From Pseudosulfitobacter koreensis (GTDB lineage: Bacteria > Pseudomonadota > Alphaproteobacteria > Rhodobacterales > Rhodobacteraceae): 64,000 bases of DNA. Positions 1,438 to 17,809 of this stretch are shown piece after piece. Made by a program: the position numbers and the translations under genes. Each line of letters opens with the position of its first letter. Position 1 is the first letter of the stretch. A model generated the notes under the pieces. It searched no databases, was not told where the DNA came from, and saw only the letters and a program-made list of their open reading frames with translations. The DNA lies in contig NZ_JANKJG010000003.1 in NCBI RefSeq assembly GCF_024733015.1, positions 124,001 through 188,000 of the forward strand, in the 5' to 3' direction.

Positions 1438-3087
1438 ATGGCCGAGATTGAACGCGAAGCGATGGAATATGATGTGGTCATCGTCGGGGCCGGCCCTGCG
1501 GGTCTGTCGGCGGCGATCCGTCTCAAGCAGTTGGACCCCGATCTGAGCGTCGTTCTTCTGGAAAAGGGCTCGGAAGTCGGTGCGCACATCCTGTCGGGTG
1601 CGGTTCTGGACCCCTGCGGGCTGGACGCGCTGATCCCCGATTGGAAGGAAAAGGGCGCGCCTGTCACTGTCGAGGTCAAGGAAGACAATTTCCTGATGTT
1701 GGGCGAGGCGGGCCAAATTCGGATACCCAACTTCCCCATGCCGCCGCTGATGAACAACCACGGCAACTACATCGTGTCGATGGGCAACGTCTGCCGCTGG
1801 ATGGCCGAACAGGCCGAAGCGCTGGGTGTCGAGGTGTTCCCCGGCATGGCGTGTTCCGAGCTGGTCTATGGCGAGAACGGCGAAGTCAAAGGCGTCGTCG
1901 CCGGTGAGTTCGGCATTTCCGCCGACGGCACCAAGGGAGACAGCTATGAGCCGGGCATGGAATTGCACGGCAAATACGTGTTCCTGGGCGAAGGCGTGCG
2001 CGGATCGCTGTCGAAAGAGGTCATCGCGAAATACGATCTGCAGGCCGACAAGGAGCCGCAGAAATTCGGTCTCGGCATGAAAGAGATCTGGGAAATCGAC
2101 CCCGCCAAGCACAAGGAAGGCACCGTGACCCACACGATGGGCTGGCCCCTTGGCAGCAATGCGGGTGGCGGTTCGTTCATCTATCACCTTGACAACAATC
2201 AGGTTTACGTGGGCTTCGTGGTCCACCTGGGCTACAAGAACCCGCATGTGTTCCCCTACATGGAATTCCAGCGATTCAAGCATCACCCGATGGTCGCCGA
2301 GCTGCTGAAAGGTGGCAAGCGCGTCGCTTATGGTGCGCGTGCGATCACCGAGGGCGGCTATCAGTCGATGCCCAAGATGGTGGCGCCGGGCGTGGCGCTG
2401 CTGGGCTGTACCGTGGGCATGGTCAACGTGCCGCGCATCAAGGGCAACCACAACGCGATGCTGTCGGGCAAGGCGGCGGCCGAGGCCGCGTACGACGCGA
2501 TCAAGGCCGACCGTTCGGGCGACGAGCTGACCGCATACGAACATGACGTGCGCAACGGCCCGATCGGCACCGACCTGAAAAAAGTTCGCAACGTCAAGCC
2601 GTTGTGGTCGAAATACGGGCTGACAGCGTCGATGGCCATTGGTGGTTTCGACATGTGGTGCAACACATTGGGCTTTTCGCTGCTGGGCACGCTCAAGCAC
2701 GGCAAATCCGACGCCGAGGCGACGGAGCCTGCGGACAAGCACAAGGAAATCGCCTATCCCAAGCCCGACGGCAAGCTGTCGTTCGACCGGCTGACCAACG
2801 TGGCGTTCAGCTTTACCAACCACGAGGAAAGCCAGCCTGCGCACCTCAAGCTGGTGGACCCCGACATTCCGGTCAACCACAACCTGCCGATCTATGCGGG
2901 TCCGTCGGCGCGCTATTGCCCTGCGGGTGTCTATGAATTCGTGACGGAAGAGGGCAAGGACCCGCGCTTTGTAATCAACTTCCAGAACTGCGTGCACTGC
3001 AAGACCTGCGACATCAAGGACCCGCCGCAGAACATCAAGTGGACGACGCCGCAGGGTGGTGACGGGCCGAATTACCCCAACATGTAA
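1438..3087 (+). CDS. Electron transfer flavoprotein-ubiquinone oxidoreductase
   Basis: This 549-residue membrane-associated flavoprotein passes electrons from reduced ETF (fatty-acid, amino-acid and choline-type dehydrogenases) to ubiquinone. The N-terminal FAD dinucleotide fold is VVIVGAGPAGLSAA (13-26). The C-terminal ferredoxin-like region has CPAGVYEF and CVHCKTCDIKDP, the cysteines that ligate the [4Fe-4S] cluster, followed by the family ending GGDGPNYPNM. Length matches the family. A strong AAAGGAG site precedes ATG 1438. A rho-independent terminator follows, so the gene looks monocistronic. The ETF alpha and beta subunit genes are not in the window. Confidence 0.97.
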   Translation: MAEIEREAMEYDVVIVGAGPAGLSAAIRLKQLDPDLSVVLLEKGSEVGAHILSGAVLDPCGLDALIPDWKEKGAPVTVEVKEDNFLMLGEAGQIRIPNFPMPPLMNNHGNYIVSMGNVCRWMAEQAEALGVEVFPGMACSELVYGENGEVKGVVAGEFGISADGTKGDSYEPGMELHGKYVFLGEGVRGSLSKEVIAKYDLQADKEPQKFGLGMKEIWEIDPAKHKEGTVTHTMGWPLGSNAGGGSFIYHLDNNQVYVGFVVHLGYKNPHVFPYMEFQRFKHHPMVAELLKGGKRVAYGARAITEGGYQSMPKMVAPGVALLGCTVGMVNVPRIKGNHNAMLSGKAAAEAAYDAIKADRSGDELTAYEHDVRNGPIGTDLKKVRNVKPLWSKYGLTASMAIGGFDMWCNTLGFSLLGTLKHGKSDAEATEPADKHKEIAYPKPDGKLSFDRLTNVAFSFTNHEESQPAHLKLVDPDIPVNHNLPIYAGPSARYCPAGVYEFVTEEGKDPRFVINFQNCVHCKTCDIKDPPQNIKWTTPQGGDGPNYPNM

Positions 3088-3108
3088 GATCGCTGACAGC
3101 GGTTTGGA

Positions 3109-3135
3109 AAAGGCGGGCTTTGGGCCCGCCTTTTT
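3109..3135 (+). terminator. Rho-independent terminator after ETF-QO
   Basis: GGCGGGC (3112-3118) pairs perfectly with GCCCGCC (3124-3130) around a five-base loop and is followed by TTTTT. Confidence 0.9.
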
Positions 3136-3280
3136 GCATATGAGGGCAAGCGTGCCGTGTGAAACCGGCAAGATGCTGCGAAGCTCACAGCATTGTTCAC
3201 CATGAGTTCGGCAGGGCCATTGCGCCCGCCTGCAGACCTGTTAGCCTTTGTCGAAGTCTATTTTTAAGAGAGGCAGCCGC

Positions 3281-5023
3281 GTGATCCGCTCCATTTTGAA
3301 AAGCACAGTTTTGAAAACTACGGTTTTGAAAAGTACGGTGGCTACGGCCCTGATCTGGTCCCTGGCTAGCCCGCTTGCGGCAAGGGACGTGGCGGGGCCC
3401 TATCTGGCGGCGCGCCAGGCGTCTTACATGAACGATTTCGGCACGGCGGCGCGCTATTACGATATTGCGCTGCGGCAGGACGCCCAGAACGCCATCCTGA
3501 TGGAGGATGCGGTGCTGGCGCATCTGATGCTGGGCGACGTGGCGCAGGCATTGCCCATCGCGAACCGGATGACCGATCAGGGGCTGCGCAGCCAGGCGGC
3601 GCATATGGCGGTGATCGCCGACATGGCGCAACGCGAAGACTTTGCCGCACTGCTTGAACGCGACATGACGGATCAGGGCGTTGGCCCGCTGGTCGATGGC
3701 CTGCTGACGGCTTGGGCGCATCTGGGCGAGGGCGACATGGATGCGGCTCTTGCAGGCTTTGATACAGTGGCCAGTGAACAGGGCATGAAGGGCTTTGCGC
3801 TCTATCACAAGGCGATGGCGCTGGCGTTGCAGGGGGAATATGCCGCCGCCGAGGCGATCTTTGCGGGGGCCGACAGCGGCACCATGGTGCGCACCCGGCG
3901 CGGCGCGCTGGCGCGGGCGGAAGTCCTCAGCCAGCTGGGCCGCAACGCCGAAGCGGTCACCAGCCTGCAAGACGCATTCGGCGCCGGGACCGACCCCGAG
4001 CTTGAGCGTGTCATCACAGCGCTTGAGGCGGGCGAGACATTGCCGTTCACCCATGTGACATCGGCCCGTGACGGCATCGCCGAGGTATTCTATTCCATCG
4101 CGGGCGCGCTGCGCAGCGAGGCGTCGGCAGATTACACGCTGCTCTATGGCCGTCTGGCGCGCTATCTGCGCCCCGGCCACGTGGACGCCCTGCTGCTGAA
4201 CGCAGAGCTTCTGGAAGAGCTTGAGCAATACGATCTGGCCATCGCGGTCTACAAGGAAGTGCCCGCCGACGATCCGGCCTTTCACGCAGCCGAACTGGGC
4301 CGCGCTGCGGCACTGCGCCGCGCGGACAAGCCCGACGCCGCCATCGAGGTGCTGGAGCAACTGGCGCGCAAGTACCCCGACCTGCCCGTCGTGCATTCGA
4401 CGCTCGGCGATCTTCTGCGCCAGCAGGACCAGTACGCGTCCGCAATCGCCGCCTATGACCGCGCGCTGGAACTGACGCCCGAGGGCGCGCGCGCGCAGTG
4501 GTTCCTGCTCTATGCCCGCGCCATCGCCCATGAACGTCTGGATCAGTGGGAACAGGCCGAGGCCGATTTCCGCCAGGCGCTGGCGCTGAACCCCGGACAG
4601 CCGCAGGTGCTGAACTATTTGGGCTATTCCATGGTCGAACAGCAGGTCAATCTGGATGAGGCGCTGGACATGATCCAGCAGGCCGCCGCCGCAAATCCCG
4701 AAAGCGGCTATATCATCGACAGCCTGGGCTGGGTGCTCTACCGCCTTGGCCGCTATGAAGAGGCGGTTGTTCACATGGAACGCGCCGTGCAGCTGGAGGC
4801 CGTCGATCCTGTGGTGAACGACCATCTGGGCGACGTGCTCTGGGCCGTGGGCCGCAAGCGCGAGGCGCAGTTCCAATGGTCGCGCGCGCTGTCCTTCGTC
4901 GATCCCAAGGACACCGAAGGCGAGGCCGATCCGGCCCGCATCCGCCGCAAGCTTGAGGTGGGACTGGACAAGGTTCTGGCCGAAGAGGGTGCCGAACCCC
5001 TGACGGTCACGGTCGACCGCTGA
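3281..5023 (+). CDS. Exported tetratricopeptide-repeat protein
   Basis: This ~580-residue protein has a Sec-type signal (basic N-terminus, hydrophobic ATALIWSLASPLA, probable cleavage near residue 34) followed by many TPR helices, for example AIAAYDRALELTPEGARAQW, QAEADFRQALALNPGQPQVL and YEEAVVHMERAVQLEAVDPV. Such proteins are periplasmic or outer-membrane-facing scaffolds; the partner is unknown. I prefer the GTG at 3281 because GAGAGG lies just upstream; a TTG at 3248 in frame has no such site. The signal N-region is built from three copies of a 15-bp repeat. It lies 10 bp before ispE in the same direction, so the two are probably co-transcribed. Confidence 0.85.
   Translation: MIRSILKSTVLKTTVLKSTVATALIWSLASPLAARDVAGPYLAARQASYMNDFGTAARYYDIALRQDAQNAILMEDAVLAHLMLGDVAQALPIANRMTDQGLRSQAAHMAVIADMAQREDFAALLERDMTDQGVGPLVDGLLTAWAHLGEGDMDAALAGFDTVASEQGMKGFALYHKAMALALQGEYAAAEAIFAGADSGTMVRTRRGALARAEVLSQLGRNAEAVTSLQDAFGAGTDPELERVITALEAGETLPFTHVTSARDGIAEVFYSIAGALRSEASADYTLLYGRLARYLRPGHVDALLLNAELLEELEQYDLAIAVYKEVPADDPAFHAAELGRAAALRRADKPDAAIEVLEQLARKYPDLPVVHSTLGDLLRQQDQYASAIAAYDRALELTPEGARAQWFLLYARAIAHERLDQWEQAEADFRQALALNPGQPQVLNYLGYSMVEQQVNLDEALDMIQQAAAANPESGYIIDSLGWVLYRLGRYEEAVVHMERAVQLEAVDPVVNDHLGDVLWAVGRKREAQFQWSRALSFVDPKDTEGEADPARIRRKLEVGLDKVLAEEGAEPLTVTVDR
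3294..3338 (+). repeat. 15-bp tandem repeat (x3) inside a signal-peptide coding region
   Basis: Three in-register 15-bp units of the form TTTTGAAAA-N6 start at 3294, 3309 and 3324. They encode Leu-Lys-Ser/Thr-Thr-Val three times. Copy number could change by slippage in whole five-residue steps without a frameshift. Confidence 0.9.
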
Positions 5024-5033
5024 GCCTGCGCCG

Positions 5034-5927
5034 ATGCCTGACCCGAGGGTGACTGACCCTATGGTGACTGGCCTGCGGGTCTTTGCGCCTGCCAAGATCA
5101 ACCTGACCCTGAATGTGACGGGGCAGCGGGATGATGGCTATCATCTGCTCGACTCGCTGGTGGTGTTTGCCGACGTGGGCGACGTGGTGCATCTGCGCGC
5201 CGCCGACGCATGGTCGTTGCAGGTGGATGGCCCAGAGGCGGCAAGCGTGCCTGCGGGCGACGACAACCTTGTGCTGCGGGTGGCGCGCCTGTTTGCGCCG
5301 GGCGCCGCGCTGACCTTGACCAAGGAATTGCCAGTCGCTTCTGGCATTGGCGGCGGATCGGCCGATGCCGCAGCGGTCTGGCGGGGCTTGGGTGTGATGA
5401 CGGGGCAGGGTCGTGATGGCGTGGATCTGCTGGCGCTGGGGGCGGATATTCCGGTCTGCGTTTCTTCGCAAGCGGCGCGGATGCAGGGCGTTGGTGATGT
5501 CATAACCCCCGTAGGGGGCCTGCCGGATCTGCATGTAGTGCTGGCCAACCCGCGCGTCGCGGTTTCGACGCCGCACATATTCAGGACCCTTGCGCACAAG
5601 GACAACGCGCCGATGCCTGCCATCTTGCCCACCTTCACCGATGCCGCCGACCTGTGCGCATGGCTGGCGACGCAGCGCAATGACCTGCAAGCCGCAGCTG
5701 AGAGCATCGCCCCGCAGATCGCCCTGACACGTCAGGCGATGGCGGCATTGCCGGGTTGCATGCTGGCGCGCATGTCGGGGTCGGGGGCCACGTGTTTCGG
5801 CGTGTTCAAAAGCGCCACGGCAGCGACGCAGGCCGCGCAACGGCTGGCACATGCACAGCCCGGTTGGTGGGTGCGCGCAGGCCGCCTGGGCTCGATGCAG
5901 GATGCAGCCAGACCGCAAGCGCTCTAG
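5034..5927 (+). CDS. ispE: 4-diphosphocytidyl-2-C-methyl-D-erythritol kinase
   Basis: IspE phosphorylates CDP-methylerythritol in the non-mevalonate (MEP) isoprenoid pathway. The 297-residue GHMP kinase shows the N-terminal APAKINLTL motif (residues 18-26) with the conserved lysine, and the glycine-rich ATP loop PVASGIGGGSADAAA. Length is typical. The start could be ATG 5034 or ATG 5061 (beginning MVTGLRVFAPAKINL), the latter preceded by GAGGG at longer spacing; neither ribosome site is strong. The gene converges with a polyprenyl diphosphate synthase that uses products of the same pathway, and the two stop codons share one CTAG. Confidence 0.95.
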   Translation: MPDPRVTDPMVTGLRVFAPAKINLTLNVTGQRDDGYHLLDSLVVFADVGDVVHLRAADAWSLQVDGPEAASVPAGDDNLVLRVARLFAPGAALTLTKELPVASGIGGGSADAAAVWRGLGVMTGQGRDGVDLLALGADIPVCVSSQAARMQGVGDVITPVGGLPDLHVVLANPRVAVSTPHIFRTLAHKDNAPMPAILPTFTDAADLCAWLATQRNDLQAAAESIAPQIALTRQAMAALPGCMLARMSGSGATCFGVFKSATAATQAAQRLAHAQPGWWVRAGRLGSMQDAARPQAL

Positions 5928-6925
5928 CTGATCCGGTCCACCACATAGTCGGCCAGATCGACCAGCATATCCTTGATGTCGTGATCGGGCAGGGGGGCCA
6001 GCGCTACCTTGGCGCGGTCAGCCCAGCCAATCGCATCGGCACGGGTCTGCGCCAGCGCGTCATGCGTGTTCAGCAGCGCCAGCGCATGCTCCAGATCGCC
6101 CTCGTCCTGCTTGCCCTTTTCGATGGTCCGCTCCCAGAAAGCCCGCTCGTCCGCCGATGCCTTGGCCACCGCCTTGATCACCGGCAGGGTCAGCTTGCGC
6201 TCGCGGAAATCGTCACCGATGTTCTTGCCGGTGGCCTCGGGCTGTCCCTGATAGTCCAGCAGATCATCGACGATCTGGAAGGCCACGCCCAACGCATCGC
6301 CATAATCATAAAGCGCGCGCACTTTTGCGTTATCTGCCCCCGCGATCACGCCGCCGACTTCCATCGCCGCCGAAAACAGCGCCGCGGTCTTGCCGCGCAC
6401 GACCTGCAGATAGACGGCCTCGTCCGTGGCCAGATCCTGTGCCGCGGTCAGTTGCAGCACCTCGCCCTCGGCAATTGTCGCGGCCGCGTTGGACAGGATG
6501 CGCATCACCTCCATCGAGCCGCATTCGGTCATCAATTGGAACGAGCGCGCAAACAGGTAATCGCCCACCAGAACGCTCGACGTATTGTCCCACAACAGGT
6601 TCGCCGTGGGGCGTCCGCGCCGTTGTGCGCTTTCGTCCACCACATCGTCGTGCAGTAGCGTGGCGGTGTGAATGAACTCGACCGTGGCGGCCAGATGCAC
6701 GTGGTAAGGCCCTGTATATCCACACAAATGCGCTGAGGCGAGGGTCAGCATCGGGCGCAGTCGCTTGCCACCCGCGCCGACCAGGTGCGCCGTCACTTCG
6801 GGAATGCGCGGGGCGTGTTCCGATGCCATCTTGGTGCGGATCAGCGTGTTGACCGCGTCCATGTCATCGGCCAGCCGCGCGGCCAGCCTGTCATGTGGTT
6901 TCACCGTGTTTTCGCTGCTGTCCAT
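5924..6925 (-). CDS. Long-chain all-trans polyprenyl (octa-/decaprenyl-type) diphosphate synthase
   Basis: This 333-residue enzyme condenses farnesyl diphosphate with isopentenyl diphosphate to make the ubiquinone side chain. Both aspartate-rich motifs are present: LLHDDVVDES and VDDLLDYQG. KRLRP and GKNIGDDFRERKLTLPV are further family signatures. Small residues (T, A, T) just before the first DDxxD are typical of long-chain enzymes. The ATG at 6925 is preceded by a GGGGG stretch. Roseobacters generally make Q-10, so decaprenyl is likely, but the chain length is inference. A DUF2007 gene starts 57 bp away on the other strand. Confidence 0.93.
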   Translation of the reverse strand: MDSSENTVKPHDRLAARLADDMDAVNTLIRTKMASEHAPRIPEVTAHLVGAGGKRLRPMLTLASAHLCGYTGPYHVHLAATVEFIHTATLLHDDVVDESAQRRGRPTANLLWDNTSSVLVGDYLFARSFQLMTECGSMEVMRILSNAAATIAEGEVLQLTAAQDLATDEAVYLQVVRGKTAALFSAAMEVGGVIAGADNAKVRALYDYGDALGVAFQIVDDLLDYQGQPEATGKNIGDDFRERKLTLPVIKAVAKASADERAFWERTIEKGKQDEGDLEHALALLNTHDALAQTRADAIGWADRAKVALAPLPDHDIKDMLVDLADYVVDRIS

Positions 6926-6982
6926 CTGTTGCCCCCGATGACCTCTCGACAACGAGGCCCGCCTGCTCTTACATCCGTGCGC

Positions 6983-7198
6983 ATGAAGGAACTTTTGCGC
7001 AGCAACGACCCGACGATCATCGCGTTTGCCTCGGCCCTACTGTCGGGCGAGGATATAGACTGCTTTGAATTGGACGTAAACATGAGCGTGCTCGAAGGGG
7101 GCATCGGTATCTTTCCGCGCCGCCTCATGGTGCGGCTTGACGATCACGACGCCGCGACACGGGTGATGCGTGACAACGAAATCCCGCTGGGACAGTGA
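6983..7198 (+). CDS. DUF2007 small protein
   Basis: This 71-residue cytosolic protein (MKELLRSNDPTIIAFASALL to NEIPLGQ) matches the DUF2007 'putative signal-transducing protein' family, ACT-like small domains of unknown function. It has a core of two conserved stretches, VNMSVLEGGIG and RRLMVRLDDHDAA. Its stop overlaps the GTG start of the methyltransferase by four bases (GTGA), which indicates translational coupling. No function can be assigned. Confidence 0.8.
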   Translation: MKELLRSNDPTIIAFASALLSGEDIDCFELDVNMSVLEGGIGIFPRRLMVRLDDHDAATRVMRDNEIPLGQ

Positions 7199-7932
7199 GC
7201 GACGGCCCCGAGCTGAGCCACGACGCTTTTTTAGGCGGCAAGGTGATGTTGTGGCAGCCGCGTGTGGGCTATCGCTCGGGTCTTGACCCCGTCTTGCTGG
7301 CCGCCAGCGTGCCCGCAAAGGCCGGACAATCGGTGCTGGATCTTGGCTGCGGGGCGGGCGCTGCGGCATTGTGCCTGGGTGCGCGGGTGCCGGGGCTGAT
7401 CCTGCACGGGGTCGAACGCCAGCCCTATTACGCCGATCTTGCCGCGCGCAACGGGCTGGATGTGACCTGCGCCGATATCACCGCGCTGCCGATGCCGCTG
7501 AAAGAGCGCAGCTTTGATCACGTGATCGCCAACCCGCCGTTTTTTGATCGCGCCGCTGGTCGCCCCTCGCCCTATTCGGGCCGCGAGGGGGCATTGGGCG
7601 AAGACACCGCGCTGGAGGCCTGGGTGCAGATCGCGGCCAAGCGGCTGCGGTATCGCGGCCTGGCCCATTTCGTGCACCGAATGGCGCGATTGCCCGATCT
7701 GTTGGCAGGGATTCGCCCCGTCCTGGGCAGCGTCGAGGTGCAGCCCTTCTCGGCGCGGCCCGGACGTGCCCCGGAATTGTGCATAATCCGCGCAAGAAAG
7801 GGCGGACGTGCGGAATTTCGCCTGCATTTTCCACGCCTTCTGCACCGCGGCGAAGCCCATTTGCGGGATGCTGAAAGCTACACACCTGAAATAAAAGCGG
7901 TTCTGCGGGATGGTGCAGCGCTGGAATTTTAA
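7195..7932 (+). CDS. tRNA1(Val)-type adenine-N6 methyltransferase (TrmN6/YfiC-like)
   Basis: This 245-residue class I SAM methyltransferase has motif I VLDLGCGAGAAALCL (about residues 44-58), acidic motif II HGVERQ, and the N6-adenine signature NPPFF (about 114-118) that stacks on the target base. The leading part VMLWQPRVGYRSGLDPVLLAA is typical of the YfiC/TrmN6 group that methylates A37 of tRNA-Val. The substrate is inferred from family resemblance. It starts with GTG overlapping the DUF2007 stop. Its TAA stop lies inside a CtrA-like site. Confidence 0.85.
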   Translation: MSDGPELSHDAFLGGKVMLWQPRVGYRSGLDPVLLAASVPAKAGQSVLDLGCGAGAAALCLGARVPGLILHGVERQPYYADLAARNGLDVTCADITALPMPLKERSFDHVIANPPFFDRAAGRPSPYSGREGALGEDTALEAWVQIAAKRLRYRGLAHFVHRMARLPDLLAGIRPVLGSVEVQPFSARPGRAPELCIIRARKGGRAEFRLHFPRLLHRGEAHLRDAESYTPEIKAVLRDGAALEF

Positions 7933-7943
7933 CCGTTGATTAA
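7929..7943. promoter_or_regulatory. CtrA-like site TTAA-N7-TTAA
   Basis: TTAA at 7929-7932 and TTAA at 7940-7943 are separated by exactly seven bases, and the first reads TTAACC. This is the full consensus for the alphaproteobacterial cell-cycle/motility regulator CtrA. It lies 90 bp before the YdcH-like gene. It was found by eye, and short AT motifs can arise by chance. Confidence 0.45.
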
Positions 7944-8032
7944 AAGTTGCCACGCTTATGATGCGTCTGCAGCGTGACAGAATTGTAAAATCGTGGTCTG
8001 CTGTAAGTGTACTTGAACGAATGGAGGACTGC

Positions 8033-8197
8033 ATGAGCCTGAGCGCACATCTCAACGAGTTGAAGAAAAAGCACGAAACCCTGAGTGACACGGTGGAAAA
8101 GGAACTTCGCGCACCGGGGGCGGACACCTTGAAGGTGGCCGAGCTGAAACGACAGAAACTCCGTCTTAAAGAACAAATTACACGCTTGTCATCCTGA
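8033..8197 (+). CDS. YdcH family (DUF465) small coiled-coil protein
   Basis: This 54-residue protein, MSLSAHLNELKKKHETLSD onward, is a single helical hairpin with the family ending LKRQKLRLKEQI. A consensus GGAGG lies 7 bases before the ATG. The biochemical role of the family is unknown. A paralogue sits at 53575-53799. The stop codon overlaps the 3' end of the convergent exporter gene by 9 bp. Confidence 0.85.
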   Translation: MSLSAHLNELKKKHETLSDTVEKELRAPGADTLKVAELKRQKLRLKEQITRLSS

Positions 8198-9064
8198 CAG
8201 GCCTTGGCCAAAGCTGGCGCGCGCCGCGATGACGGCGCCGCCGGTGACCAAAAGTGCGGCGGCAGCCAGCGACCAGCTGGCCTCCGTCACTCCGGCGAGC
8301 ACCAGAACCAACGTGGACAGCAACGGTGCCGCATAGGACGCGGTGCCAAGCAACTGAATGTCGCCGCGTTTCACGCCGATGTCCCAGACGTAGAACGCCA
8401 GCCCCACCGGGCCGAGGCCAAGCGCGATCGTGCTGGCCCAGCCCGTTGTGTCCACAGGCCACTGCGTCGTTTCAAATGCCAGATGCAACGGCACGGACAA
8501 AACCGCGCTGGCAATGCAGAACACCGCAACGCTGTCGGTCGGCACGGCGCCGAACCCGCGCGAGCCGACGGAATACCCCGACCAGAACAGCGCGCAGATC
8601 AGCGCCAGCCCGTATCCGGGCAGGTGCGCAGCCTGAAACCCGGTGCTGCCGCCCGAAATGATCAGCGCAGCGCCCAGAAACCCGGTGATCGCCCCGACGA
8701 TATGCCCGGCGCGCAGCCGCTCTCCGGGCAGCAAGCCCGAAAAGACCACGATCAGCAGCGGCCAGAGATAGGCGATCAGCCCCGCTTCGGCGGCGGGGGC
8801 CAGACGCAGCGCCGAAAAATACAGCGCGTGATAGCCAAGCAGTCCTGCGGTGCCGAAGACATAGACCCGCAGCGGCACGCCGCGCAGGCGGTGCAGTCCG
8901 CCGGTCGATGCGCTCCAGACCAGCCCAAGACCGCCGCCGATGCCAAAGCAGATCGCGTTCAACTGCAAGGGCGGCACGGGGGCCGACCCGACCGTGAACA
9001 GCGCCAGCAGCGCCCAAAGCAGCACCGCGACAAAGCCGATGACAGTGGCCCGCAACGTCGTCAT
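8189..9064 (-). CDS. EamA/DMT-superfamily exporter (YddG-like)
   Basis: This 291-residue integral membrane protein has about ten hydrophobic segments in two EamA repeats, including GFVAVLLWALLALFTVG and LLGYHALYFSALRLAPAAEAGLIAYLWPLLIVVFSGLLPGE (split here by a loop). The latter resembles the aromatic amino-acid exporter YddG group. The substrate is not determinable. Its ATG overlaps the stop of the upstream lysR gene by four bases (ATGA), so regulator and exporter are co-translated. Confidence 0.85.
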   Translation of the reverse strand: MTTLRATVIGFVAVLLWALLALFTVGSAPVPPLQLNAICFGIGGGLGLVWSASTGGLHRLRGVPLRVYVFGTAGLLGYHALYFSALRLAPAAEAGLIAYLWPLLIVVFSGLLPGERLRAGHIVGAITGFLGAALIISGGSTGFQAAHLPGYGLALICALFWSGYSVGSRGFGAVPTDSVAVFCIASAVLSVPLHLAFETTQWPVDTTGWASTIALGLGPVGLAFYVWDIGVKRGDIQLLGTASYAAPLLSTLVLVLAGVTEASWSLAAAALLVTGGAVIAARASFGQGLSG

Positions 9065-13570: not shown

Positions 13571-13671
13571 AAGACATCTCCGTACCTTGAGGGATCGGGT
13601 TACACTTTGCCGTCTTATTCTCTAAGAATGGATTAATGTTCCTATTTTAGTCTTATTTGCGGATACGCCCG

Positions 13672-14292
13672 ATGAGCGGTCAGATTGCGGAAGAAGACGG
13701 CCTTTGCCGCTGCGATTGGGCCGGGCCCGAACCGATCTATCGCGCCTATCACGACACTGAATGGGGCGTGCCGGAATACAACAGCCGGGCCCTGTGGGAA
13801 AAGCTGATCCTGGATGGATTTCAGGCCGGTCTGTCCTGGCTTACCATTCTGAAAAAGCGCGAAAACTTCCGCGCGGCCTTCGACGGGTTCGACCCGCGCA
13901 CCATCGCCGGATGGGGCTCGGATGAGGTTGATCGGCTGGTGCAGGACACGGGTATCATCCGCCACCGCGGCAAGATCGAGGCGGCCATTTCCAACGCCCG
14001 CGCGTGGTGCCGGATCGAGGACCGTGAAGGCTTTGACATCTACATGTGGCGCTATGTCGATTTCGCCCCCTTGCAGCCCGCATATGCATCTCAGACGCTG
14101 GTGCCGCCCAGCACCGACCTCAGCACCCGAATCTCCAAGGACATGAAGAAGGACGGCTTCAAGTTCTGCGGCCCCACCATCGTCTATGCATGGATGGAGG
14201 CTTGCGGGTTGGTCAACGACCACCTGACCACCTGCCACCGTCACGCGGCAGTGGCGCAGATGGGCACGCACACCCCGTGGAATGGCCGTTGA
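13672..14292 (+). CDS. tag: DNA-3-methyladenine glycosylase I
   Basis: Tag removes 3-methyladenine from alkylated DNA in base-excision repair. The 206-residue protein shows the family motifs CxCDWAGPEPIYRAYHDTEWG, LILDGFQAGLSW and KFCGPTIVYAWMEACGLVNDH. The zinc-type ligands are C11 or C13 near the N-terminus and the late histidine/cysteine group NDHLTTCHRH. The start is the ATG at 13672; an in-frame TTG 15 bases earlier has no better site. Its stop codon overlaps the -35 element of the rpsD promoter. Confidence 0.95.
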   Translation: MSGQIAEEDGLCRCDWAGPEPIYRAYHDTEWGVPEYNSRALWEKLILDGFQAGLSWLTILKKRENFRAAFDGFDPRTIAGWGSDEVDRLVQDTGIIRHRGKIEAAISNARAWCRIEDREGFDIYMWRYVDFAPLQPAYASQTLVPPSTDLSTRISKDMKKDGFKFCGPTIVYAWMEACGLVNDHLTTCHRHAAVAQMGTHTPWNGR

Positions 14293-15108: not shown

Positions 15109-16542
15109 TTATGCGACTTGGGATACATATTCTGCGGCCTTCTCCAGATCCTGCCGGAACAGCGCGGTGTACGTCTCTCGCGCGTCCTCGTCCGGCAGGC
15201 GCAACAGATACGACGGGTGTACGGTCGCCAATACCGGCCCGTGCGCCGTTTCTTCGATCTGTCCGCGCCGCTTCAAGATGCCTTCCTTCGTGCCGGTCAG
15301 CGCCAGCAACGCCGTGCCGCCCATCGCCACGATCAGCTTGGGCTTGACCAGCGCCACCTCGGCCTCCAGCCACCATTTGCAATGCATCACTTCGGACTTA
15401 TGCGCAGGCTCGTGCATCCGCCGCTTGCCGCGCTGCTGGAATTTGAAATGTTTGACCGCATTGGTGACATAGGCTTGATCACGCGCCAGCCCCGCCTGCG
15501 CTGCTATCCGGTCGAACATCTGCCCCGCCGGTCCGACAAAGGGACGGCCCACCCGATCCTCGGTGTCGCCGGGCTGTTCACCGACCACCATCAGCGCCGC
15601 ATCGCGCGGCCCCTCGCCGGGGACCGCTTGCGTGGCAGGACCACACAGCGCGCAGCGGGTGCACGCCCTGATCTGCGTATGCACGCTGTCCAGACTGTCG
15701 CGGGTTGCCACGGCGCGCATATCGGCAAGGCCCGCGCTGATCCGTTCGGCGCGCAGGGGCGGCAGGGTCGGGGCCGCCGCTTGCATCTCGCGCGCGCGTG
15801 CTTCGGCATTGGCCAGCAGTTGGGGGATATGCCGAGTTTCGGGCATGTTCTTCCAGTATTTCTTCGGCATCTCCGAGGTCATTGCCTGCACCTTCACCCG
15901 CGCGGGGTTGAAAATATTACAGAAATAGGTTCCCCACAGCTCCTCCGTCGCATCCTCGGGCAGGTCGGGGCGCGCGTTACCGGGCGCAAAGCTAAGGTTT
16001 CCATCGCGGAAATGCGCGGTCACGTCCGGCGTGACGATCACCCAGTCCATGTCGCCGAACCTGCGGGCAAAGAATTGCGCGGTGGGCTCGACCGTGTGGT
16101 GTGTCGGCTCGAACCAGGCGGCAAAGCGGCGGCGCGGTCCATCAGCGGCCAGATCGCGAAACCGCACGAATGCCTTCATCTTGTGCGCGCAGCGGTTCAC
16201 GTTTTTCTCCATCGCGCGCAAGTGCGCCAGCTGCGCATCGCCCCGATCCTGCATCAGCGCGGGCCGGTCGCGCAGCCGCCACAAAAACGCATAAAGCCGC
16301 GCAAAACGGTCATCACCACTGTGCCAGGCGACCCGATTGGCCATGTCCACAAAGGATTTCGGCACTCTCGCCGTCGCGGGTGCGCTGATTTCAGGCGGCG
16401 GCGCGGCAAACAGATCGACCTGTGCCGGATCGTCGAAGGACCACAGCACATCCTCGGGCCGGGTGCCTCCGGCCAGCAGCCCGCGCGCGGCCTCGCGCCA
16501 GGCCTGCGCCGTGTTGATGCGGGGCAGGGCAACGGTGCGCAT
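15109..16542 (-). CDS. DUF4130 - UdgX-type uracil-DNA glycosylase fusion
   Basis: This 477-residue fusion has an N-terminal DUF4130 region (roughly residues 80-250) and a C-terminal family-4-like uracil-DNA glycosylase (about 285-477). The latter has GEQPGDTEDRVGRPFVGPAG, an iron-sulfur cysteine pair in CTRCALC, KHFKFQQRGKRRMH and VHPSYLLR. The KRRxH loop (373-377) defines UdgX, whose histidine (H377 here) forms a covalent bond with the sugar left after uracil removal. QVDLF at 41-45 resembles a beta-clamp binding peptide. Its ATG overlaps the radical SAM stop (TGATG), so the two are co-translated. Both probably act on DNA under SOS control. Confidence 0.9.
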   Translation of the reverse strand: MRTVALPRINTAQAWREAARGLLAGGTRPEDVLWSFDDPAQVDLFAAPPPEISAPATARVPKSFVDMANRVAWHSGDDRFARLYAFLWRLRDRPALMQDRGDAQLAHLRAMEKNVNRCAHKMKAFVRFRDLAADGPRRRFAAWFEPTHHTVEPTAQFFARRFGDMDWVIVTPDVTAHFRDGNLSFAPGNARPDLPEDATEELWGTYFCNIFNPARVKVQAMTSEMPKKYWKNMPETRHIPQLLANAEARAREMQAAAPTLPPLRAERISAGLADMRAVATRDSLDSVHTQIRACTRCALCGPATQAVPGEGPRDAALMVVGEQPGDTEDRVGRPFVGPAGQMFDRIAAQAGLARDQAYVTNAVKHFKFQQRGKRRMHEPAHKSEVMHCKWWLEAEVALVKPKLIVAMGGTALLALTGTKEGILKRRGQIEETAHGPVLATVHPSYLLRLPDEDARETYTALFRQDLEKAAEYVSQVA

Positions 16543-17774
16543 CAAAACAGGCTCAACTGCTCGGGCGGTGGCGCGAACCGCGCCCGCAGATCGGCGGTAT
16601 CGACCAGCTTCCCCGGCGACCAGTCACGCAAGCTGATGAAAGGCCGCGCTTTTTTCAACAGCGCCCCCATGCGTTGCAGGTCGGCATAGCGCAGCCCGCG
16701 CTGCCGCCGGGTGCCCAGAATGCGGTTCACCGTCTTGACCCCGAAACCGGGCACGCGCAGCAGCATCTCGCGCGGCGCGCTTTGCACGTCGACCGGAAAC
16801 AGACCCCGGTGCGCGATGGCCCATGCCAGTTTCGGGTCCATCTCAAGATCGAGATTGCCCGCGTTCGTCACGCTCGTGATCTCGTCCACGGAAAAGCCGT
16901 AGAAGCGCAGCAGCCAGTCCGCCTGATAGAGCCGATGTTCGCGCACCAGCGGCGGCTGCACCAGCGGCAATTTGGCGCTGCTGTCGGGGATCGGCGAAAA
17001 GGCGGAATAATACACCCGCTTCAGCCCGAAACTGCCATAAAGGCTGTTGGCCTGCCCCAGAATGGTCGCGTCGTTCGACCCGTCCGCGCCCACGATCATC
17101 TGGGTGGATTGCCCTGCAGGCGCGAACTTTGGCGGGCGCTTGCCGGTGTGCGATCGGTCTTTCGATGCAGCGCGCCCCGCCTTGACGTCGTTCATCGCCG
17201 CGCGGATCGTCGCAGGGTTCTTTTCGGGTGCATAGGCGGCCACGGCGGCCTCGGTCGGAAGCTCCACATTGATCGACAGACGATCGGCATAAAGCCCCGC
17301 CTGAGCGATCAGTTCAGGTGCGGCATCGGGGATCGTCTTGAGGTGAATATAGCCGCGAAAATTCTCGCGGGTGCGCAGCAGGCGCGCGATCTGTACCATG
17401 TCCTCCATTGTCTTGTCGGGCGATTGAATGATGCCAGAAGACAGGAAAAGTCCTTCGATATAGTTACGACGGTAGAATTCGATGGTCAGCGACACGACCT
17501 CTTCGGGCGTGAAACGCGCGCGGGTGGTGTTCGAGGACACCCGGTTGACGCAATAAGCGCAGTCATAGATGCAGAAATTTGTCATCAAAATCTTGAGCAG
17601 GCTGATGCAGCGCCCGTCAGGCGTATAGGCGTGGCAAATGCCCGAGCCTTCGTTCGAACCGAGGCCCGAGCCATCGCGGCTGCCGCGCTTGGTGCCTCCG
17701 GACGACGCGCAAGAGGCATCGTATCGGGCCGCATCCGAGAGAATCGCAAGTTTTTCCGAAAGTGTTTTAACCAT
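16542..17774 (-). CDS. Putative DNA modification/repair radical SAM protein
   Basis: This 410-residue protein has the radical SAM cluster motif C68-x3-C72-x2-C75 (NFCIYDCAYC), then a TIM-barrel-like region. A helix-hairpin-helix DNA-binding segment follows (MLLRVPGFGVKTVNRIL, about 337-353), and the C-terminus is QLSLF (406-410). The family is known to accompany the UDG/DUF4130 protein, but its reaction is not established. The terminal pentapeptide equals the consensus by which polymerases and repair proteins bind the DnaN sliding clamp. The start ATG 17774 lacks a clear ribosome site; a promoter and LexA box abut it, so a leaderless mRNA is possible. Confidence 0.9.
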   Translation of the reverse strand: MVKTLSEKLAILSDAARYDASCASSGGTKRGSRDGSGLGSNEGSGICHAYTPDGRCISLLKILMTNFCIYDCAYCVNRVSSNTTRARFTPEEVVSLTIEFYRRNYIEGLFLSSGIIQSPDKTMEDMVQIARLLRTRENFRGYIHLKTIPDAAPELIAQAGLYADRLSINVELPTEAAVAAYAPEKNPATIRAAMNDVKAGRAASKDRSHTGKRPPKFAPAGQSTQMIVGADGSNDATILGQANSLYGSFGLKRVYYSAFSPIPDSSAKLPLVQPPLVREHRLYQADWLLRFYGFSVDEITSVTNAGNLDLEMDPKLAWAIAHRGLFPVDVQSAPREMLLRVPGFGVKTVNRILGTRRQRGLRYADLQRMGALLKKARPFISLRDWSPGKLVDTADLRARFAPPPEQLSLF

Positions 17775-17776
17775 AT

Positions 17777-17809
17777 GTTCACTTTATGTTCCCTATGCTG
17801 AGGGCGCAA
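17777..17809 (-). promoter_or_regulatory. LexA (SOS) box overlapping the radical SAM/UdgX promoter
   Basis: GTTC (17777-17780) and GTTC (17788-17791) are separated by exactly seven bases, which is the alphaproteobacterial LexA box. On the minus strand, TTGCGC (17804-17809) lies 17 bases before TAAAGT (17781-17786), so the box covers the predicted -10. The start codon is 2 bp further. LexA binding here would block transcription until DNA damage. Confidence 0.72.

Follow-up and report, generated by a model that had tools for sequence, protein, structure and literature searches.

The window, a stretch of 64,000 nucleotides from Pseudosulfitobacter koreensis (contig NZ_JANKJG010000003.1, positions 124,001 to 188,000), carries on its minus strand a two-gene cassette composed of a radical S-adenosylmethionine (SAM) enzyme of the TIGR03916 family (410 amino acids, 16542 to 17774) and a DUF4130-UdgX fusion protein (477 amino acids, 15109 to 16542). 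With moderate confidence, we consider the first protein to be a lesion-processing enzyme that is induced by the SOS response, tethered to the clamp, and obligately partnered by DUF4130, with UdgX as an accessory. In the NCBIfam profile search, the enzyme scored 580.9 bits against TIGR03916 (curated cut-off, 343.5), and the fusion protein scored 198.6 bits against TIGR03915 (cut-off, 112.25) and 305.5 bits against TIGR03914 (cut-off, 189.95). In Pfam, the fusion protein matched PF13566 (128.4; cut-off, 27) and also PF03167, and the enzyme gave Radical_SAM (PF04055) alone at an E value of 0.001. The family matches of both genes are far above chance level.

The original prediction, made from the letters of the window, was supported insofar as the two genes form a DNA-damage cassette whose UdgX-type domain is intact. 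The stop codon TGA of the first gene and the start codon ATG of the second overlap by one base (TGATG), and the predicted motifs of both proteins were present. In addition, we observed three features beyond that prediction, namely a LexA-type box, a C-terminal clamp motif, and three extra conserved cysteines.

Pairing of the enzyme with DUF4130 and dispensability of UdgX

The co-occurrence of the families was examined in 199 genomes of the host's phylum by counting profile matches above cut-off. TIGR03916 was found in 38 genomes, TIGR03915 in 40, TIGR03914 in 37, and DnaE2 in 82. The Caulobacter vibrioides genome, used as a control, matched all three cassette families. The enzyme and DUF4130 occurred together in 38 genomes, the enzyme without DUF4130 in none, DUF4130 without the enzyme in 2, and neither in 159 (Fisher's test, 8e-39). 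For the enzyme and UdgX, the corresponding counts were 28, 10, 9, and 152 (p = 3e-18). Co-occurrence, which had been proposed as a check of the original prediction, was therefore far beyond chance for DUF4130 (38/38 enzyme genomes) and for UdgX (28/38). The TIGR03916 family was also found outside the phylum, in Bacillota, Bacteroidota, and Fusobacteriota.

Next, we examined the gene order in the best 80 of 586 confirmed candidate loci, a set chiefly from Alphaproteobacteria that includes several near-copies. DUF4130 was located downstream of the enzyme in 79 of the 80 loci, at most 100 bases away in 77, and the remaining locus (L098) ends at a contig edge. UdgX was in the same frame as DUF4130 in 66 of the 79 loci; the other 13 lacked a same-frame UdgX under the criterion applied here, a match of 60 bits or more to the UdgX of the window. 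Looser spacing was seen in two genomes: DUF4130-UdgX lies some 3 kb past the enzyme in G193 (L017) and about 0.6 kb from it in G024.

A quick tree of the enzyme was built from 115 rows, including the window's own copy (L001) and the distant members L111 to L114 and L117; it had long branches, and the outgroup did not form one side of a branch. DUF4130 was found for 114 of the 115 rows, and the contig of the other row ends. When UdgX was labeled on this tree, 12 changes were counted, 10 of which were forced by starred branches; L016 and L098 were left unlabeled at contig ends, and L010 was scored as positive although its UdgX sits in another frame. In the five distant loci L111 (Bacillota), L112 (Acinetobacter), L113 (Bacteroidota), L114 (Fusobacteriota), and L117 (a gut contig), the enzyme was followed by DUF4130, as confirmed by TIGR03915 in all but L112, for which the match was weak. 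Within the 9 kb examined at these loci, UdgX was not found. At L117, the open reading frame (ORF) after DUF4130 (6085 to 8466) resembles, by eye, a DinG/Rad3-type helicase.

Separation in the other direction was also observed. In L120 to L122, which share one family code and are placed near Mesorhizobium through L016 and L019 of that code, the enzyme was lost and UdgX remained intact behind a DUF4130 stump, recognized by its profile match in two loci (L120 and L122) and by eye in the third (L121). In L122, inspection by eye further suggested a few retained residues of the enzyme start and a frame shift ahead of UdgX; L120 has a LexA-type box 6 bases from its UdgX-containing frame. Apparent internal deletions in L120 (genome G071) and L122 (G051) took the enzyme gene together with most of DUF4130, amounting to a separation of function that arose naturally. 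In L124, the enzyme was gone, and UdgX was intact beside a DUF4130 that, by eye, lacked the conserved MPKKYW stretch. Because separations run in either direction, the enzyme and DUF4130 behave as one unit and UdgX as another. Judging from these gene arrangements, UdgX looks like an optional add-on that is dispensable to the pair, not the general substrate of the enzyme.

These results bear directly on the original prediction that the radical-SAM enzyme resolves, modifies, or senses the covalent UdgX-DNA adduct. The fusion of UdgX to DUF4130 in most loci, the co-occurrence of UdgX with the enzyme, and the conservation of the adduct-forming histidine in 66 of 67 fusion rows are in its favor. However, 10 of the 38 enzyme genomes have no UdgX over the cut-off, the five distant pairs have none beside them, and the 12 changes of UdgX on the tree occurred while DUF4130 stayed. 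In L067, the enzyme and DUF4130 are kept beside a degenerate fused UdgX in which the loop histidine, the motif-A glutamate, and motif-B residues are altered, and in L120 to L122 UdgX is kept after loss of the enzyme. UdgX also occurs without the enzyme in nine genomes, some of which are apparent deletion derivatives. Because UdgX has been lost repeatedly while the enzyme-DUF4130 pair stays, a general role on UdgX adducts was rejected. We regard action on the adduct as very improbable overall; a role confined to UdgX-bearing lineages is conceivable.

LexA-type boxes upstream of the cassette

A LexA (SOS) type box of the form GTTC-N7-GTTC (GAACATAAAGTGAAC on the gene's strand) is located at 17777 to 17791, 2 bases upstream of the start codon of the enzyme. 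The recurrence of such boxes was examined over positions -150 to +20 relative to the picked start in the 80-locus set and over -150 to +10 relative to the profile match in a second sample of 30 loci, which includes the window's own copy. Exact boxes of the form GAAC-N7-GAAC or GTTC-N7-GTTC were present within 150 bases upstream in 74 of the 80 and 25 of the 30 loci (99 of 110 together). The upstream regions of the 80-locus set contained 76 boxes in 13.6 kb, compared with 21 in 696 kb elsewhere, and those of the 30-locus set contained 26 in 4.8 kb, compared with 3 in 120 kb elsewhere. CTGT-N8-ACAG boxes, the E. coli LexA box type, were found upstream in three (L020, L023, and L029) of the five box-less loci of the 30-locus set. 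A single-mismatch box was found in four of the six loci of the 80-locus set that had no exact box, a count not compared with chance. The lexA and recA genes of the host genome have the same box type as the cassette, and a box was also present upstream in 9 of the 13 loci without UdgX. The conserved boxes make the cassette a probable member of the LexA regulon, with LexA as the presumed repressor.

A direct-repeat LexA motif is stated for Alphaproteobacteria in a passage of PMC8565304, which also predicts SOS regulation of the COG1573-COG4277 operon in Bacteroidetes and cites earlier reports for Verrucomicrobia and Alphaproteobacteria; from the pairing, our enzyme would correspond to COG4277. 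Excerpts of two further papers describe the Clostridium acetobutylicum operon CAC3343-CAC3344 as a predicted LexA target (PMC3828012) and the enzyme as up-regulated in desiccated Acinetobacter (PMC13130816).

A clamp-binding motif at the C terminus of the enzyme

The enzyme ends in QLSLF (16545 to 16559, minus strand), a consensus beta-sliding-clamp-binding motif. An excerpt of PMC12309361 gives this consensus as QL[S/D]LF or QxxLF, and a passage of PMC4549789 places the motif often at the C-terminal end. Gln406 was invariant in the 115 rows. The strict motif was found in 54 of the 115 rows, compared with 0.16 in shuffles, and 101 of the 115 had the broad motif within their final 25 residues, compared with a mean of 3.5 in shuffled sequences and 30 of 1735 windows elsewhere. 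The protein stops directly after the motif in 85 rows. Eleven rows showed no match in the last 45 residues; among their tails are QLSLAL and QLGFGF, possible variants of the clamp motif. The last block of the enzyme model had a predicted local distance difference test (pLDDT) score of 58, consistent with an accessible tail like that of clamp clients. From this pattern of tail sequences, the enzyme is probably tethered to the replication clamp via its C-terminal motif. A second clamp motif in DUF4130 was considered and rejected: xxxLF was present in 72 of the 79 loci but QxxLF in just 6. The window's protein itself does have QVDLF.

Conserved cysteines and fold of the radical-SAM enzyme

The window's enzyme contains exactly six cysteines. 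Cys68, Cys72, and Cys75 form the predicted CX3CX2C radical-SAM cluster motif (17550 to 17573), which was kept in 115 of 115 rows. Cys22, Cys47-His48, and Cys56 precede it in an N-terminal stretch at 17607 to 17711; Cys22 was conserved in 114 of the 115 rows, and Cys47 and Cys56 in all of them. The three N-terminal cysteines were also present in L119, where the enzyme is cut off after 125 residues. An exception was the plasmid-borne Gemmatirosa locus L115, whose enzyme has none of Cys22, Cys47, and Cys56, scores 303.3 bits (under the TIGR03916 cut-off), and ends in QLSLW; no DUF4130 match was found in the stretch examined around it. Based on conservation, Cys22, Cys47, and Cys56 could form an auxiliary Fe-S cluster or metal site with a role in enzymes partnered by DUF4130. 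The link between the triad and DUF4130 is based on one outgroup (L115). L115 possibly represents a separate subfamily of the enzyme, and a search for further DUF4130-less members turned up L115 alone.

The helix-hairpin-helix (HhH) of the original prediction corresponds to an HhH-like stretch, LLRVPGFGVKTVNRI, at residues 338 to 352 (16719 to 16763), in which Gly343 and Gly345 were kept in 115 of 115 rows; it is a candidate site of DNA contact. The AlphaFold2 model of the enzyme had a mean pLDDT of 85.0; the alignments behind this model and that of the fusion protein had 72 rows each. The fold matches were radical-SAM enzymes, and the CX3CX2C motif was found together with a partial TIM barrel. 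Among the matches listed, lipoyl synthase (LipA, Z score of 18.1) and HydE (17.6 to 18.1) led. Lipoyl synthase carries an N-terminal auxiliary cluster. Profile comparison showed no homology to LipA.

One alternative weighed against this evidence is that the enzyme repairs a UV thymine photoproduct, as SplB does, or modifies thymine. A 2013 figure legend (PMC3765255, as excerpted) links DUF4130 both to radical-SAM proteins of the SplB-like kind and to uracil glycosylases, and it suggests that the radical-SAM proteins might modify thymines. Membership in the radical-SAM family, the HhH-like segment, and the LexA-type boxes would fit this function. However, the pair is present in Subdoligranulum, Phocaeicola, and Fusobacterium (L111, L113, and L114), which are gut or mouth anaerobes without light exposure, and this occurrence argues against a substrate produced by UV only. 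Moreover, no SPL family was matched at an E value of 0.001 in NCBIfam or Pfam, and the fold list led by LipA and HydE contained no SPL chain among the 50 matches listed; neither absence amounts to exclusion. Accordingly, we rate an SplB-like function as improbable.

The DUF4130-UdgX fusion protein

The AlphaFold2 model of the fusion protein had a mean pLDDT of 92.2. Its DUF4130 (TIGR03915) domain, the travelling partner of the enzyme, comprises residues 10 to 236 (15835 to 16515), and its UdgX (TIGR03914) domain comprises residues 239 to 468 (15139 to 15828). The UdgX domain matched Mycobacterium smegmatis UdgX (6l6s_A) with a Z score of 31.0, a root-mean-square deviation of 1.5, 199 aligned residues, and 44% identity. 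The predicted KRRxH loop and GEQPGDxED motif were present as the R-loop KRRMH (residues 373 to 377; 15412 to 15426), in which His377 is the equivalent of the covalent His109, and as motif A, GEQPGDTED (residues 321 to 329; 15556 to 15582). Motif B, HPSYLLR, spans residues 442 to 448 (15199 to 15219). With these motifs intact, the domain is predicted to form adducts on uracil-DNA. When the fold of DUF4130 was sought with the whole fusion model, the Foldseek and VIA lists were filled by uracil-DNA glycosylase (UDG) chains, and most of the named BFVD matches were UDG or polymerases.

In DUF4130, R127, F128, P146, F158, R161, and I169 were invariant in 86 of 86 sequences. A classical metallo-enzyme was considered and rejected: H120 (84/86) and E145 (83/86) vary in distant members. 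The conservation pattern fits binding slightly better than hydrolysis.

The invariant basic and aromatic residues of DUF4130, the clamp motif, and the tight pairing with one partner would also fit an enzyme that modifies an SOS or replication protein, such as the clamp, ImuB, or DUF4130 itself, instead of DNA. The HhH-like segment and the UDG domain fused to the partner nevertheless point to DNA, and we give a protein substrate a low probability.

Mutasome genes near the cassette

We examined the flanks of the cassette for genes of the ImuA-ImuB-DnaE2 mutasome. The order imuA-imuB-enzyme-DUF4130/UdgX-dnaE2 was found in the Sphingomonadales-type loci L090, L105, L107, L109, and L110. In L109, which shows this order most clearly, imuA is located at 1551 to 2444 and imuB at 2338 to 3930, the enzyme ends at 5224 and the fusion gene at 6663, and dnaE2 starts at 6653. 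The genes were assigned by profiles in L110 and by similarity to L109 in L090, L105, and L107, with imuB of L090 having only a below-cut-off polymerase IV match. The dnaE2 genes scored 1111 bits (L109) and 1102 bits (L110) against a cut-off of 939, and imuB of L109, L110, and L075 matched PF00817 over the cut-off; imuA profile scores were under the cut-off. In L075, L011, L013, and L014, imuA-imuB are divergent from the enzyme. Altogether, imuA and imuB were in the flank (up to about 4 kb) of 8 of the 80 loci, 6 of which also had dnaE2.

Among the 199 genomes, dnaE2 was at most 5 kb from the enzyme or fusion gene in G035, G111, G149, G128, G087, G146, and G185, and was beside a lone UdgX in G182. 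In the latter (L127), a UdgX-type gene with altered motifs (GEQPGLHED and a TAKLH loop) is about 55 bases from dnaE2 and convergent with it. When 1812 flank ORFs were clustered, those recurrent in at least three families were imuA and imuB, with their overlapping frames, and one LysR-like gene (by eye), a common kind of neighbor that occurred in 6 loci from 5 families. A link between the enzyme and DnaE2 by co-occurrence was considered and set aside: it was strong overall (p = 2e-8) but was lost within the class, and adjacency is the better evidence.

Proposed role of the cassette

In the reading that we favor, LexA would repress the operon from the box abutting the start codon. After DNA damage, the enzyme would be made and anchored via QLSLF to the beta clamp at sites of replication or repair, near the ImuB and DnaE2 machinery where those exist. 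It would apply SAM-derived radical chemistry, aided by the putative Cys22/Cys47/Cys56 metal site, to a replication-blocking DNA lesion; the simplest chemistry would be abstraction of a hydrogen atom that reverses or unhooks the lesion. DUF4130 would present or recognize the DNA, and UdgX, fused to DUF4130 in many Pseudomonadota, would trap uracil at the same sites.

Several observations weigh against this reading. The substrate and the reaction are those that we infer, the evidence for clamp binding is the motif itself, and that for the cysteine site is conservation, with enzyme residues 23 to 43 modeled at a pLDDT below 50; an hhalign comparison of the enzyme with LipA showed no sequence relation. 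Two DUF4130-positive genomes have no enzyme (G174, where the match is near a contig start, and G185), and the contig L118, from a viral collection, carries a full-length enzyme with a QLELF tail, followed by a last 774 bases of contig without a DUF4130 match. Four loci (L002, L018, L095, and L108) have no exact box of the two types, and L095 and L108 have no one-mismatch box either. The box of the window is unremarkable by itself, as the 64 kb contain 2 matches compared with 1.66 expected; a single box is thus uninformative, and the weight comes from recurrence across loci. The second GTTC-N7-GTTC match, at 3195 to 3209, is on the 5' side of an ORF at 3248 to 5023 (plus strand) and inside the end of an ORF at 3197 to 5101 (minus strand). 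Within the class, the association of the enzyme with DnaE2 was not significant (25/27 compared with 28/36, p = 0.17), and the host genome, which is about 90% complete, has no DnaE2 match over the cut-off; the mutasome is therefore not required.

A more specific form of the proposal assigns the cassette to the mutasome. The clamp-tethered enzyme, with its auxiliary Fe-S cluster and DUF4130, would reverse or unhook a base lesion before ImuB/DnaE2 or other SOS polymerases act, and the UdgX fusion would capture the uracil that is uncovered, preventing mutation. We consider this form possible but unlikely. If true, it would amount to radical-based, light-independent direct reversal in the SOS response across several bacterial phyla. 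For the favored reading of an SOS-induced, clamp-tethered enzyme, the clamp motif, the six cysteines, and the imuA-imuB-dnaE2 position turn an uncharacterized radical-SAM protein into a subject of specific tests, and the dispensability of UdgX shifts the focus from UdgX adducts to lesions bypassed by SOS polymerases.

Occurrence on plasmids and neighboring genes

Matches to the enzyme were found in 158 of 72,556 plasmid records, the top genera being Phaeobacter (58), Paracoccus (15), Azospirillum (11), and Leisingera (10). Ten records labeled as phage also matched; of the two inspected, one is without annotation and the other adjoins glyS and glyQ, so the latter looks like bacterial DNA. In the window, a gene resembling that of DNA-3-methyladenine glycosylase I (tag) is located at 13657 to 14292 on the plus strand (224 bits; cut-off, 232.5), two genes from the cassette with rpsD in between. 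No tag cluster was found among the recurrent flank ORFs of the 80-locus set.

Comparison with known systems

The cassette is an ordinary member of a known gene pair, and both the pairing and its SOS regulation are already in family databases or in print. The NCBIfam names link the families (TIGR03916, rSAM_link_UDG; TIGR03915, SAM_7_link_chp; TIGR03914, UDG_fam_dom), and NCBI names TIGR03916 a putative DNA modification/repair protein. Compared with these families and the COG4277-COG1573 operon, all three domains are above their cut-offs here and the window shows no departure. The expectation of an undescribed pathway consequently stands for the chemistry and falls for the pairing and the SOS regulation. 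In our searches of the open-licence literature, we found neither a functional study of the TIGR03916 enzyme nor a reaction for it, and its clamp motif was not mentioned. The present analysis adds this motif, the cysteine triad, and the observation that UdgX is dispensable.

With Mycobacterium smegmatis UdgX, the fusion protein shares motif A, the R-loop, and motif B, as these motifs are given in the abstract of PMC10359453. The solved UdgX chains have about 205 to 229 residues, whereas UdgX is here the C-terminal domain of a 477-residue fusion. The words "fusion," "fused," and "operon" do not appear in the available text of PMC10359453, nor do "radical," "operon," and "domain" in that of PMC10776899.

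The ImuA-ImuB-DnaE2 mutasome has LexA-type control in common with the cassette and occupies the same gene string in some Sphingomonadales-type loci, and ImuB has its own clamp motif. In contrast to the mutasome, the cassette would contribute a lesion-processing enzyme and not a polymerase, and most loci have no mutasome neighbor in the flank. SplB resembles the enzyme in being a radical-SAM protein with an SOS link and a DNA-repair label. However, SplB belongs to COG1533, which a passage of PMC8565304 treats as separate from COG4277, and the present enzyme has six invariant cysteines, with the triad ahead of CX3CX2C, and its nearest folds among the matches listed are LipA and HydE.

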